NCBI GenBank assembly: GCA_035550055.1
Contig: DASZRO010000117.1
Span: 1 to 60,341 of the forward strand
DNA length: 60,341 nt
From: Mycobacteriales bacterium
GTDB lineage: Bacteria > Actinomycetota > Actinomycetes > JAFAQI01
Direction: 5' to 3'
Each line of letters begins with the position of its first letter. Position 1 is the first letter of the stretch. Below are positions 31,118-60,299 of this stretch, piece after piece. Position numbers and translations under genes: made by a program. The notes under the pieces are model-generated. The model searched no databases. It saw only the letters and a program-made list of their open reading frames with translations, and was not told where the DNA came from.

Positions 31118-33358
31118 ATGACTGTGCCCGGGCCGGCACCCGCAGCCGGGAGCGCCCCGGTGAGCATCCAGCTGCGCGCCGAGGCGTCCGAGGTCGGCAT
31201 CAACGCCCGACGAGGCATGGTGCGCATCGCGCCCGCCGTGCTGGCTGCGCTCGGCGCGCGGCCGTATTCGGTGGTGAAGCTCACCGGCACGAAGGCGACC
31301 GGCGCGCTCGTCGCGCAGAGCGGACCCGATCTGGACCCGGGCGTGATCCGGGTCGACGACCTGATCCTGGGCAACCTGGGGGTGGCTCCGGACACTGCGG
31401 TCACCGTGGAGCTCGTACCGTCGCTGGCCGCCGACCGGATCGTCGTCAGCGGCCCCGAGCAGGTCTCGTCCGTGCTGCCGCCGCAGACCGTCCGGCTCGC
31501 TCTGCTGGGCAAGGTGGTGTGTCAGGGCGACGCCGTGTCACTGCTCCAGCAGGACGTGGCGTTGCCCGAGGGGTCGAGCGCTGAGCTCATGGGTCAGGGC
31601 CGACTCCAGCTGCAGCAGCTGTTCGGCCAGGCCTGGCAGGGCATGGTGCTGACCGTCGTCGAGGCTCCCGCAGTCCCGACCGTCGTCACGATGACAACGG
31701 AGGTCCAGTGGGCAAGCGGGCAGCCCGCCGCCGCGGCCCCGGTGGCCGGTACGCCGCTTGCGGTGGCGACGGTCATCCCGCCGGCGGCCGGTGCCGCGGC
31801 GCCCACCTCGGCCGAGGCGAAGCAGCTGCGGGAGCTCCTCGACGTCGGTCTCAACCATCCGGAGCTGCTGGCGAAGCTCGGCACTTCGCCGTCGCTCGGC
31901 GTACTGATCAGCGGGCCGTCGGGCAGTGGCAAGAACACGATGGTGGGCCAGGTCGCGTCGGCGCTCGGCCTGACGGTCAAGGCCGTGTGGTGTCCGCAGC
32001 TCGCGTCGTTGGCGCCTGACAAGGCGGCTGCCGAGATCGCGTCGCTGAAGGCCGACCTGCTCGCCGCCGCCGACGCCCGATCGGTGCTCGTCCTCGACGA
32101 CGTGGAAGATCTCGCGCCGGCCGACGGCGACGCGCCGCTTGCCGCCGTGCTGGTCGCCGCCGTCGCGGACCTGGTGAAAGCCGGGCGCGCCGTCGTCGCG
32201 TTGACCGCGGCGCCGCAGTCGGTCAGCCACGACCTGCTCGGTCCGGCGATGTTGTCGAACCGCATCGTCGTCCCGCTGCCGGACCAGCCGACCAGGCGGG
32301 CACTGCTGGCCGGCCTGACGCAGACCGTCGCGCTGTCCGCCGACGTCTCCCTGGACGACCTTGCGGCGAAAACCCCCGGCTTCGTCGTCGCCGACCTGCT
32401 CGCCCTCGTCAACGCCGCCGGCCGGCTGGCGGCCGTGCGCGAGCAGTCGGCGCCGACTCCCACCCCGGCCATCGCGGCCGCGGACTTCGCTGCCGCGCTC
32501 GCGACGGTCCACCCGTCGAGCATGGACGGGCAGCTGGTCGATCCCGGGCAGGTCGGGATGGCGGACATCGGCGGGCTGGGCGAGGTGAAGCAGGTCCTCA
32601 CGGAGACCGTGCTGTGGCCGATCGCCTACCCCGACACCTTCGCCCGGCTCGGGGTCGCACCGACCCGCGGCGTCCTGCTCTACGGGCCGCCCGGCTGCGG
32701 CAAGACCTATCTCATCAAGGCGCTCGCGCATGACGGCCACGCCAACGTGCTGTCGGTCAAAGGTGCCGAGCTGATGAGCAAGTGGGTCGGTGAGAGCGAG
32801 GCCGGAGTACGCCAGCTCTTCGCGCGCGCCCGTGGCGCCGCGCCGAGCTTGGTCTTTCTCGACGAGGTCGACGCGCTCGCCCCGGTACGTGGCGGCGGCG
32901 GCGCCGGCGACGACGGGGTGGGCGACCGGGTGGTCGCCGCTCTGCTGACCGAGCTGGACGGCATCGACCAGCTCCGTGGCGTGGTCGTCGTCGCCGCGAC
33001 GAACCGTCCCGACATGGTGGACCCGGCGCTGCTTCGACCCGGCCGGCTCGAACGGTTGCTCTTCGTGCCGCCGCCTGACCAGGCCGCTCGTGCCGCGATC
33101 CTCACTGCGGCGGCCGCGCACACCCCGCTGGATGCCGGCGTCGATCTCGCCGCCGTCGCGGCGCGCACCGAGGGCTTCTCCGGCGCGGACTGCGCGGCGC
33201 TGATCCGCCAGGCGGCGTTGGCCGCGATGCGCCGGTCGATGGACGCGCCAAACGTCACCGGCGCGGACATCGACGCCGCGCTCGCCGTCGTACACCCGTC
33301 CCTGGATCCGGCACAGCTCCAGAAGCTTCAGGAGTTCGCCGCAGAGCGCGGGAAATAG
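31118..33358 (+). CDS. Cdc48/VCP-like double AAA+ ATPase
   Basis: Type II AAA+ ATPase of 746 residues that probably forms a hexameric unfoldase or segregase. An N-terminal domain (residues about 15-190) resembles the Cdc48 double-psi barrel (GINARRGMVRIAPAVL). D1 has Walker A GPSGSGKN (266-273), where the usual Thr/Ser is Asn, and an atypical Walker B VLVLDDVEDL. D2 is canonical: GPPGCGKT (523-530), VFLDEVDAL, and ATNRPDMVDPALLRPGRL with the arginine-finger region. D1 therefore may bind but hydrolyse ATP poorly. Similar proteins occur in mycobacteria; their substrates are unsettled. Confidence 0.92.
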   Translation: MTVPGPAPAAGSAPVSIQLRAEASEVGINARRGMVRIAPAVLAALGARPYSVVKLTGTKATGALVAQSGPDLDPGVIRVDDLILGNLGVAPDTAVTVELVPSLAADRIVVSGPEQVSSVLPPQTVRLALLGKVVCQGDAVSLLQQDVALPEGSSAELMGQGRLQLQQLFGQAWQGMVLTVVEAPAVPTVVTMTTEVQWASGQPAAAAPVAGTPLAVATVIPPAAGAAAPTSAEAKQLRELLDVGLNHPELLAKLGTSPSLGVLISGPSGSGKNTMVGQVASALGLTVKAVWCPQLASLAPDKAAAEIASLKADLLAAADARSVLVLDDVEDLAPADGDAPLAAVLVAAVADLVKAGRAVVALTAAPQSVSHDLLGPAMLSNRIVVPLPDQPTRRALLAGLTQTVALSADVSLDDLAAKTPGFVVADLLALVNAAGRLAAVREQSAPTPTPAIAAADFAAALATVHPSSMDGQLVDPGQVGMADIGGLGEVKQVLTETVLWPIAYPDTFARLGVAPTRGVLLYGPPGCGKTYLIKALAHDGHANVLSVKGAELMSKWVGESEAGVRQLFARARGAAPSLVFLDEVDALAPVRGGGGAGDDGVGDRVVAALLTELDGIDQLRGVVVVAATNRPDMVDPALLRPGRLERLLFVPPPDQAARAAILTAAAAHTPLDAGVDLAAVAARTEGFSGADCAALIRQAALAAMRRSMDAPNVTGADIDAALAVVHPSLDPAQLQKLQEFAAERGK

Positions 33359-33406
33359 GCCCCTCGAGGCATTACACGTTTGCCGGGCCGCAGGCATCTT
33401 AGAGAC

Positions 33407-33925
33407 GTGACGTTCGAGGAGTACGCCGCAGCCCGACTGCCCCGCTTGCTCCGTTACGCCGTCATCCTGACCGGCGACGCCGACCTGGCCCAGGACGTCG
33501 TTCAGGAGGTGCTGGCCCGCGCGCAGGTCCGGTGGAGCCGGATCCTGCGCGCCGGCTCACCCGACGCCTACGTCCGCCAGATGGTGCTCAACGAGTACCT
33601 GTCGTGGCGGCGGCGCTGGGCGGTCCGCAACATCCAGGCGGTGGGTGAGCGGCTCGTGGAAGTGGGCGACCGCACCAACGCCCATCGAGACCACGCCCAC
33701 GACCTCGTCGAGAGCGACGAGATCTGGGCTCGGCTCGCCACCTTGCCGCGAAAGCAGCGCGCGGTCCTCGTCCTGCGCTACTACGAGCAGCTGTCCGACG
33801 GCGAGATCGCCACGTTGCTCGACTGCGCGCAGGCCACCGTCCGCAGCAACGCATCAAAGGCCTTGGCAACCCTGCGGCTTCAACAGGAGCCGCAGCGAAT
33901 CCCCGTAGCAGGAGACGCCCGATGA
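33407..33925 (+). CDS. SigE-family ECF RNA polymerase sigma factor
   Basis: A 172-residue sigma-70 family factor of the actinobacterial SigE-type ECF group. Region 2 starts at FEEYAAARLPRLLRYAVILT with DLAQDVVQEVLARAQVRW; region 4 has LATLPRKQRAVLVLRYYEQL, DGEIATLLDCAQATVRSNAS. The GTG at 33407 is preferred to an in-frame TTG at 33380; no good Shine-Dalgarno is visible and the transcript may be nearly leaderless. The stop overlaps the next ATG by 4 nt, so the factor is coupled to the repeat membrane protein, which has the topology expected of its antagonist or sensor. Confidence 0.9.
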   Translation: MTFEEYAAARLPRLLRYAVILTGDADLAQDVVQEVLARAQVRWSRILRAGSPDAYVRQMVLNEYLSWRRRWAVRNIQAVGERLVEVGDRTNAHRDHAHDLVESDEIWARLATLPRKQRAVLVLRYYEQLSDGEIATLLDCAQATVRSNASKALATLRLQQEPQRIPVAGDAR

Positions 33926-34926
33926 CTCCCAACCTTCACCAGCTCGACGAGGCCTTCTCGACCCACGAGCTGCTCGCGCCCGACGCGGATGCGGTGCTGT
34001 CCCGATCCCACGAGATCGCCCGCAACCTCAAGCGTCGGCAGTGGGCGGTGCGCGCGACCGGCGGCGGCGTACTCGCCGCAGGCTTGATCGCCGGCGGCGT
34101 CGTCATCCCACACGCGCTGCAGCACCCGTCGCACAACGTGGTCCTGCACGAGGCCTCCGAAGGTGACGGGTCGTCGCCCAAGGACGTCGCACCGACGCCG
34201 ACCGCGGCGAGCTCGACCGACGATGCGTACGCGGCGTACTTCGACGCCGGGTACACCTACTCCGACGCGCAGCAGCTGGCGCAGCTCTGGCACGAGTCGG
34301 GTCCTGACGCGATTGCGAACGTCAAGGCCGAGGCCGGTGCCAAGCTGCTGAAAGGCCAGACGCTGCCGATCCCGCCGAGCGGGACTCCTGCCTCGCCGCA
34401 GGAGCTCGCGATGGACGCGTTCTGGAACGCGGGCTACGACTACAGCGACGCGCAGACGCTGGCCCAGATGTGGCACGAGACCGACATCACGCAGGTCAAG
34501 GCCGAAGCCGGTCAGAAGCTCGAGGACGGGCAGACCCTGCCGATCCCGCCGAGCGGTGGTCCGGTGACACCGGAGGACAGTGCGGACACCGACGCCGTCG
34601 ATGCGTTCTTCGCCGCCGGTTACACCTACGACGATGCCGTCCAGCTCGCGCAGACCTGGAACACCGCGGACCCCTACCACGCGAAGATCGAGGGCGGTCA
34701 GAAGCTGGAGGACGGGCAGTCGCTGCCGATCCCGCCGAGTGGTACGCCGTCGACGGCGTACGTCGACCAGCAGGCTCGGCAGGCGTTCTTCGCCGCGGGC
34801 TACGACTACAACGACGCGGTCCGGCTCGGTCAGCTCTGGCACCAGACCGACACCGACCAGATCAAGGCCGAGGCCGGGCAGAAGCTCGAGAACGGGCAGA
34901 CCCTGCCGATCCAGCCGTCATCCTGA
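33922..34926 (+). CDS. Single-pass membrane protein with four ~50-residue repeats, putative sigma-factor partner
   Basis: I do not recognise a named family. The 334-residue protein has a cytoplasmic N-terminus (1-44), one membrane helix (about 45-66), an acidic/Pro-rich linker, then four repeats at residues 103-154, 163-212, 225-274 and 283-334. The consensus is F-x-A-G-Y-x-Y-x-D-A-x2-L-A-Q-x-W, then K-A-E-A-G-x-K-L-x2-G-Q-T-L-P-I-P-P-S-G. The repeats would be outside the cell. ATGA overlap with the sigma factor gene suggests an anti-sigma-like or surface-sensing role (inference); no classical ZAS zinc motif is present. The amidoligase gene follows after 4 nt. Confidence 0.85.
   Translation: MTPNLHQLDEAFSTHELLAPDADAVLSRSHEIARNLKRRQWAVRATGGGVLAAGLIAGGVVIPHALQHPSHNVVLHEASEGDGSSPKDVAPTPTAASSTDDAYAAYFDAGYTYSDAQQLAQLWHESGPDAIANVKAEAGAKLLKGQTLPIPPSGTPASPQELAMDAFWNAGYDYSDAQTLAQMWHETDITQVKAEAGQKLEDGQTLPIPPSGGPVTPEDSADTDAVDAFFAAGYTYDDAVQLAQTWNTADPYHAKIEGGQKLEDGQSLPIPPSGTPSTAYVDQQARQAFFAAGYDYNDAVRLGQLWHQTDTDQIKAEAGQKLENGQTLPIQPSS
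34228..34923 (+). repeat. Four tandem coding repeats (~150-156 bp each)
   Basis: Units at 34228-34383, 34408-34557, 34594-34743 and 34768-34923 are separated by linkers of 8-12 codons rich in Pro, Ser, Thr, Asp. Conservation is strongest in the AGY-x-Y-x-DA stretch and the GQTLPIPPSG end; repeat 3 is most divergent (WNTADPYHAKIEGG) and repeat 4 ends LPIQPSS at the stop. The pattern indicates internal duplication of a folding unit, not a DNA-level satellite. Confidence 0.85.
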
Positions 34927-34930
34927 AGCG

Positions 34931-35971
34931 GTGACGACGCTCCATTCGCGGATCGGCTTCGAGGTCGAGCTCCTCGCGCCGCGCGGATCGAGTCGTCGCA
35001 CCCTGGCCGAGGAGCTCGCCACCCGATCGGGTGGCGAGCTCCTTCCCGTCTGGCACCTGGACAGCGAGCCCGTCCCGCTGGAGTCACTCGGTGGGCGCTT
35101 CCTTCACCTGACCCACGGCTTCGAGGTTCGCCGCGCGGGCGGCGAGCAGTTGTGCACGCTGGTCGACGACATCACGATCGCGGCCGACCTGGACCCGACC
35201 GCGCCGGCGGCCGACGGCTGGCATCGGCTGTTGACCGACGACATCCGGCTGGCCCGGCTGCTGGACCGGCAGTGTGACCCCGCGGCGGGGATCGAGGCGG
35301 TGCTCGACCCGGTCGCGCGGCTGTGGGGTACGCCGGTCGAGACCATCGGCCACATCCGGCGGCTGGACGTCGCGGGTGCGACCGTCGTACTGGCCGCACC
35401 GGCCGGGGGCGAGCGGGAGCGGCCCTGCGAGATCGTCACGCCGCCGTTGACCGCCGATCACGGTGACGCTCTTGAGGAGCTGCTCGCGCCGGCTCGTGAG
35501 CTCGGTTTCGTCGTACCGCGCGAGGCCGCCATCCACCTGCACGTCGACGGCGCGCCGTACCGGAACCCGGCCGCGCTCGCCAACGTGGTGCGGCTGTTCG
35601 GTTACTGGCGGGAGCCGTTGCGCGAGCTGCTCGGGACCAATCCGCAGTGCCGCCGGCTCGCGCCGTTGCCCGACGAGCTGGTCGCGGCAGTCGCCGGGGA
35701 GCCGACGTATGACGAGCTGCGCGCGGCGGCGAAGGCGGGCGGGCTCACGAAGTTCTACGACGTGAACCTCACCCAGCTCTTCCGTGACGACCCGATCCGC
35801 GACACCCTCGAGATCCGCATCCTGCCCGGCGCGATCAGCGCCGAGGATGTCGTGTCCCGCGCCGCGGTGGTCGAGGAGCTGCTGCAGCGCTGCCTCGACC
35901 CGGCCCCGATCGCGCGTCCGCGCGAAAACCCTCCGCCGAGCCCAACCTTTTTGGTCTCTCCCGGCCCCTGA
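34931..35971 (+). CDS. Amidoligase family protein (putative COOH-NH2 ligase)
   Basis: Likely ATP-dependent amide-bond-forming enzyme of the Amidoligase_2 family (glutamine-synthetase/GCS fold). Seen in the 346-residue product: RIGFEVELLAPRG at the N-terminus (the acidic strand that starts this fold), EIVTPPLTADHGDALEEL, AAIHLHVDGAPY, and late TLEIRILPGAIS, matching the usual E..E/ H-x-H-x-D / R-x-LPG order. The GTG at 34931 is 4 nt after the repeat-protein stop. Substrate is unknown; cell-wall peptides or the neighbouring repeat protein are possibilities, the latter pure inference. The C-terminal tail is Pro-rich and ends inside the palindrome at 35938-35992. Confidence 0.78.
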   Translation: MTTLHSRIGFEVELLAPRGSSRRTLAEELATRSGGELLPVWHLDSEPVPLESLGGRFLHLTHGFEVRRAGGEQLCTLVDDITIAADLDPTAPAADGWHRLLTDDIRLARLLDRQCDPAAGIEAVLDPVARLWGTPVETIGHIRRLDVAGATVVLAAPAGGERERPCEIVTPPLTADHGDALEELLAPARELGFVVPREAAIHLHVDGAPYRNPAALANVVRLFGYWREPLRELLGTNPQCRRLAPLPDELVAAVAGEPTYDELRAAAKAGGLTKFYDVNLTQLFRDDPIRDTLEIRILPGAISAEDVVSRAAVVEELLQRCLDPAPIARPRENPPPSPTFLVSPGP

Positions 35972-35992
35972 GAGACCAATATCGTTGGGCTC
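35938..35992. terminator. Nested palindrome overlapping amidoligase stop, possible terminator or leader hairpin
   Basis: Outer arms GAGCCCAAC (35938-35946) and GTTGGGCTC (35984-35992), inner arms TGGTCTCTC (35952-35960) and GAGAGACCA (35970-35978). A symmetric 5/5 internal loop separates the two stems and the apical loop is 9 nt. The amidoligase stop codon (35969-35971) is inside it, and the next ATG (35996) is 4 nt beyond it. No U-tract follows. It could end the sigma-operon transcript or control translation of the next gene. Confidence 0.6.
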
Positions 35993-35995
35993 GAC

Positions 35996-46165: not shown

Positions 46166-46192
46166 GGCGGCAGAGTCTAGGTGATGACAGAT

Positions 46193-46233
46193 CCTGACAT
46201 CAGGTGTAACGTTCGATGTCAGCGACTGACATC
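46193..46233. promoter_or_regulatory. Paired TetR operators between tetR and epimerase genes
   Basis: Two inverted repeats: CCTGA-CA-TCAGG at 46193-46204 and GATGTCAG-CGA-CTGACATC at 46215-46233 (perfect 8-bp arms). The octamer CTGACATC occurs in both. They fill the 83-bp gap between the divergent TetR and epimerase genes, the standard position for an autoregulatory TetR operator. Confidence 0.65.
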
Positions 46234-60253: not shown

Positions 60254-60299
60254 ACACGACGAGGGCCCGCGGCGATTCGCCTGCGGGCCCTCGTCGTGT
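60254..60299. terminator. Very strong hairpin downstream of glnN
   Basis: ACACGACGAGGGCCCGC (60254-60270) pairs perfectly with 60283-60299, a 17-bp stem with a 12-nt loop that can itself pair partly. It lies 20 nt after the glnN stop. No long U-tract follows. It is the most stable hairpin I found here and may stop transcription from both sides. Confidence 0.85.

Follow-up and report, generated by a model that had tools for sequence, protein, structure and literature searches.

Gene order and sequence comparison indicate that the core of a rare, well-supported and apparently undescribed module is a pair of genes, one for an amidoligase and one for an exported repeat protein, to which some actinobacteria have added a sigma factor of their own. 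The example analysed here lies in a 60,341-nucleotide contig of a Mycobacteriales bacterium (DASZRO010000117.1; hereafter the window), where the three genes form one compact unit. An earlier note on this DNA had described a three-part operon. Its gene order does recur in other genomes, but the note missed that the sigma gene is optional (4 loci with it, 5 without, and 1 cut off) and that the amidoligase/repeat-protein pair, which we regard as the core, extends across phyla. An amidoligase with a dedicated partner and an ECF sigma factor with a membrane antagonist are known themes; the new part is the repeat domain family.

A compact three-gene unit

The unit lies on the forward strand and is present in a single copy in its own genome. 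The ECF sigma gene (33407–33925), which starts with GTG, overlaps the gene for the repeat protein (33922–34926) by 4 nt (ATGA). The amidoligase gene (34931–35971), also with a GTG start, begins 4 nt past the stop codon of the repeat-protein gene. These coordinates bear out what had been read from the sequence alone, namely a SigE-type ECF sigma gene overlapping the gene of a single-span repeat protein by 4 nt, with an amidoligase gene 4 nt downstream. Rfam and tRNA searches and PADLOC gave no match. A CDC48-like AAA ATPase (N-domain plus two AAA modules; 31118–33358) is encoded on the same strand and ends 48 nt upstream of the sigma gene; no counterpart was recognised in the lists of gene starts for the other sigma-bearing loci.

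The third gene encodes an Amidoligase_2 enzyme of the glutamate-cysteine-ligase-like family (PF12224, E 2.7e-13; 50.8 bits compared to a gathering score of 22). Residues E11, E13, R162-E163-R164, H202, H204, E294 and R296 are invariant among nine amidoligase sequences, and a catalytic role seems likely for these charged residues. The enzyme has no signal peptide and its N-terminus has no hydrophobic stretch, so that a cytoplasmic location is expected. To our knowledge, the substrates of Amidoligase_2 enzymes are mostly not known; amidoligases of this fold use small carboxylates as substrates.

The amidoligase and repeat-protein genes occur together across phyla

Scanning 297 genomes of the class with a profile of the window's four repeats led to three genomes (G005, G067, and G082), and a two-row amidoligase alignment led to Virgisporangium aliadipatigenens, Frigoribacterium sp. 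VKM Ac-2836, Synechococcus sp. UW105, and Cellulomonas septica. The pair is also carried by a further cyanobacterium (G471) and by a genome from another actinobacterial class (G901). A direct pattern search of genome contigs for the whole repeat protein gave no relatives; it was the amidoligase alignment that found them. Together with the window (G000), this makes ten loci, from actinobacteria of several families and two Synechococcus-type cyanobacteria. At every one of the ten loci with this amidoligase subfamily, the gene immediately upstream of the amidoligase gene encodes the repeat protein, in several cases with a 4-nt overlap.

Amidoligases (profile A3) and repeats (profiles A1 and A4) were searched for separately. 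In the class sample, the amidoligase profile identified G000, G005, G067, and G082 among 394 genomes, and the repeat profile identified the same four among 297, plus two short marginal matches (G112 and G159; E about 5e-4, 19 to 31 positions) that we took as chance. Both profiles picked exactly G396 and G471 from 250 genomes of the cyanobacterial order, and exactly G000 and G901 from the phylum samples (396 and 301 genomes). G067, G082, G471, and G901 were absent from the repeat profiles that found them. Neither protein was seen without the other in the genomes sampled. Since separate profiles return matching sets of genomes, we conclude that the module is rare and that its two genes travel together; the samples comprise about a thousand genomes and not all, so exceptions may exist.

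Some weaker matches were set aside. An amidoligase match in G038 turned out, by eye, to lie antisense to a glutamate-dehydrogenase-like gene, and repeat-protein matches in G007 and G032 cover only the N-terminal head and membrane region described below; the G007 protein follows a sigma-like gene and is accompanied by neither repeats nor amidoligase. Searches of IMG/VR and of phages with the amidoligase, and of plasmids with both proteins, gave no match. In Synechococcus UW105, the pair (L080:8366–10116) has approximately 44% G+C within a region of 54%, which suggests that it was acquired there.

The repeat unit is a predicted three-helix domain

The presence of four repeats of approximately 50 residues was confirmed. 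The units lie at 34231–34377, 34414–34551, 34600–34737, and 34780–34917 on the forward strand and are 56% to 70% identical at the protein level. The conserved unit spans 46 to 52 residues, with linkers between units and a period of 58 to 62 residues, and follows the consensus [FY]-F-x-A-G-Y-x-Y-x-D-A-x-x-L-A-x-L-W-...-K-x-x-A-G-x-K-L-L-x-G-x-x-L-P-I-x-P. Each protein of the family carries 2 to 4 copies. When the units of the ten loci (27 to 29) are compared, a tryptophan and a leucine in helix 2 and a glycine in helix 3 are invariant, the helix-3 lysine (K135, K193, K255, and K315 in the four window units) is present in 26/27, and an aspartate is present in 27/29. The invariant residues are mostly fold-forming. 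The aspartate fits a capping box and is probably a helix-capping residue, and the lysine could be structural too.

AlphaFold2 modelling of one unit, repeat 4, alone and with a 14-unit alignment gave three helices at residues 2–9, 14–24, and 29–41 (mean pLDDT 97.0, pTM 0.80). In the model of the full repeat protein, three helices are seen in every unit, at a low overall pTM of 0.30. The repeat protein has no meaningful match in Pfam, NCBIfam, or PDB sequences, and in PHROGs the sole match covers 15 residues of an uncharacterised family (E 5e-4). Fold searches with repeat models against the PDB and viral libraries stayed at noise level; such searches have low power for so small a helical domain, and their outcome is no proof of a new fold. 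Given the models and the absence of a Pfam, NCBIfam, or PDB match, we propose that the approximately 46-residue three-helix repeat constitutes a previously unregistered domain family.

A dedicated sigma factor accompanies the pair in one clade

The order sigma-repeat-amidoligase is found at four loci (the window, G067, G082, and Virgisporangium), where most neighbouring genes overlap by 4 nt. The search for the three families in the same order that the earlier note had suggested thus finds the arrangement in three genomes besides this one, with the sigma factors in one clade, and a peculiarity of a single genome it is not. No sigma factor of this kind is present in the surroundings examined of Frigoribacterium, UW105, G471, and G901, nor on the short Cellulomonas contig; in G005, the contig ends inside the repeat gene and the sigma status is cut off.

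The window sigma factor (33407–33925) has 172 residues and consists of regions 2 and 4 only, with PF04542 and PF08281 above cut-off. Its best family match is TIGR02983 (SigE-fam_strep), at 137.7 bits against a cut-off of 141.55; because this cut-off is missed, we call the protein SigE-like and not a certified member. The four module sigma factors form one clade (support 100/99), sharing 66% to 72% identity with each other and at most 56% with 29 other SigE-type sigma factors of related genomes. In the amidoligase tree, a moderately supported branch (77/89) separates the sigma-bearing loci from the others. The pattern agrees with the sigma gene having joined the pair only once; alternatively, the sigma factor may have been lost from an ancestral trio.

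Upstream of the sigma gene, all four sigma-bearing loci (4/4) share the layout KTRCACS-N16-CRTC followed by N8/9-GTG. The window has an ECF-like promoter of this type at 33372–33398 (forward strand), with TTACACG at 33372 and CATC at 33395–33398, 8 nt upstream of the sigma start codon. The best promoter block has 8 invariant columns, compared to a maximum of 7 in the controls (1000 shuffles and 1000 random genomic sets). ECF sigma factors typically recognise CGT in the −10 element and switch on the operon that encodes them (PMC8103513). The −35 part of the module promoter is unlike the AAC that is usual for ECF promoters (PMC8103513). The sigma gene is probably autoregulated, activating its own expression. 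Its transcript is probably leaderless, the distance from promoter to GTG suggesting that it begins at or near the start codon. A second promoter-type sequence (TTACACC-N16-CATC) is found on the reverse strand at 46183–46209, with an ATG 17 nt on; it may mark a regulon member or be due to chance.

The N-terminus of the repeat protein differs between loci with and without the sigma gene. At sigma-bearing loci, it opens with 44 to 48 predicted-cytoplasmic residues that contain the motif EAFxxHExLAPD and, after it, an arginine-rich stretch, followed by a membrane span. In the window, this head is encoded at 33922–34062 and the predicted span (residues 48–66; hydropathy maximum 1.76 at residue 48) at 34063–34119, both on the forward strand, which would leave the four repeats outside. 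At sigma-free loci, the head is lacking and there is a signal-peptide-like start instead. Other SigE-type sigma genes in the genomes of this family likewise overlap a gene whose product has one membrane span and a short basic head. No Pfam anti-sigma domain matched the head at E 1. We take the architecture as good indirect evidence for an anti-sigma role of the head, and the protein is likely both an anti-sigma factor and the partner of the amidoligase. The idea that the repeat protein is the antagonist or sensor of the sigma factor is supported as regards architecture (gene overlap, a head with one span, and a head that is absent where sigma is absent), with binding of the sigma factor a plausible consequence.

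Possible functions of the pair

Our preferred reading, with a probability of roughly 0.4, is that the amidoligase modifies the repeats, that these act at the cell surface, and that they feed back on the sigma factor where there is one. Gene association and fold prediction point to a two-gene core in which a cytoplasmic amidoligase would serve its own exported partner of 2 to 4 three-helix domains. The enzyme would form one amide bond in each unit of the repeat protein before export, with the conserved helix-3 lysine as the likely acceptor, and the modified repeats would act at the surface. In one actinobacterial branch, which includes this genome, the pair is preceded by the gene of its own ECF sigma factor, which probably activates itself, and architecture and promoter suggest that the head lets the repeat protein double as a membrane-bound anti-sigma factor. 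The state of the repeats would then report to the sigma factor, switching the operon up or down.

We rank modification of the repeats first because the lysine of each unit is a natural acceptor and because there is a precedent of related fold, PafA, a glutamine-synthetase-fold ligase that joins Pup to protein lysines (PMC3511204, PMC2588565). Since only these two genes are common to actinobacteria and cyanobacteria, and no other biosynthetic gene was seen to be common to the loci, the substrate is likely to be the partner protein or something universal, such as a universal metabolite. The earlier note had cast the repeat protein as a substrate or scaffold of the amidoligase. The pairing at 10/10 loci argues for the functional partnership, of which modification may be a part. 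The main difficulty for repeat modification is that the predicted topology puts the two proteins on opposite sides of the membrane; with the repeats outside and the enzyme inside, modification would need to come before export. The stronger claim of a new modification system, in which a dedicated amidoligase tags the lysine of every repeat and some actinobacteria read the resulting state via their own sigma factor, is tentative, and we consider it rather unlikely to hold in full.

The topology difficulty would disappear if the amidoligase amidates a cytoplasmic envelope precursor or metabolite and the exported repeats bind the product, with sigma-bearing strains sensing the product or the modified wall and controlling the sigma factor in this way. 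We rank this below repeat modification but regard it as a serious contender: it fits an enzyme inside and beads-on-a-string repeats outside, a compact folded unit repeated several times within each protein, in the manner of wall-binding modules, and the activity of this amidoligase fold on small carboxylates. However, the pair is kept across the very different envelopes of actinobacteria and cyanobacteria, and at the loci examined no further biosynthetic gene, transporter, polymerase, or other pathway gene is seen to accompany it. A simpler arrangement would be a plain sigma/anti-sigma pair with the amidoligase as one regulated effector, the repeat protein and the enzyme having no action on each other. 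Sigma genes with an overlapping single-span gene are indeed common in the genomes of this family, and the repeat protein has an N-terminal head of that kind, but this is largely contradicted by the five loci that keep the pair with no sigma gene nearby and by the fact that neither protein was found alone, which makes it improbable. We give even less credence to a multi-core graspetide-like RiPP precursor that the amidoligase would crosslink and a protease release. Graspetides of the microviridin type also combine repeated units with an amide-forming enzyme, one enzyme here stands beside one repetitive partner with an aspartate and a lysine conserved per unit, and multi-core graspetide precursors are on record (PMC8939145). 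Yet the models predict that the units are stably folded domains (pLDDT 97) with conserved core hydrophobics and not flexible core peptides, the enzyme has another fold (PF12224, not ATP-grasp), and no common protease or dedicated exporter is seen.

If the amidoligase does modify the repeats, a close parallel is PafA, also a ligase of the glutamine synthetase superfamily, which joins a carboxylate to protein lysine; unlike PafA, the operon has no Pup-like gene and the target would be one dedicated partner. The fold relationship between PafA and the amidoligase is only distant. Amidoligase-linked peptide modification systems were reportedly predicted by Iyer et al. in 2009. The module resembles the Amidoligase_2 peptide-modification systems in enzyme family and in having the ligase gene beside a probable peptide or protein partner; it differs in its partner, a folded, exported repeat protein that belongs to no described family, and in that no peptidase or ATP-grasp partner is seen. 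With the SigE-type ECF/membrane anti-sigma pairs of actinobacteria (RseA/RsiW-like logic), the sigma-bearing form shares a two-domain sigma factor, an overlapping downstream single-span gene with a cytoplasmic head, and a promoter with a CGT-like −10 upstream of its own gene. Unlike in those pairs, the outer repeat domain also occurs at loci that lack the sigma factor, none of the known anti-sigma domains is recognised, and an amidoligase follows. In the literature searched, no paper connected PF12224 with repeats of this kind or with sigma factors; the main survey of these enzymes (Iyer et al. 2009) may describe a similar neighbourhood. Strict pairing across phyla with one small exported domain offers a testable substrate/ligand pair in named strains (Virgisporangium, Frigoribacterium, and Synechococcus). 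The pair also defines a new domain family and ties it to a sigma circuit whose sensor would be the repeat protein.

Hairpin and inverted repeats

The palindrome that had been taken to close the unit is a real nested hairpin (35937–35993, forward strand; −35.5 kcal/mol, z −7.2), but its role as an end of the unit is doubtful. We rejected a classical terminator since the hairpin lies across the amidoligase stop codon, is not followed by a U-run, and ends 2 nt before the ATG (35996) of the next ORF, which is SnoaL-like. It could instead be an operator or attenuator of that ORF. Two further symmetrical elements were observed: a perfect 34-bp palindrome (17-nt arms, no spacer) within the amidoligase coding sequence at 35010–35043 and, near the end of the window, a perfect 17-bp inverted repeat with a 12-nt loop at 60254–60299.
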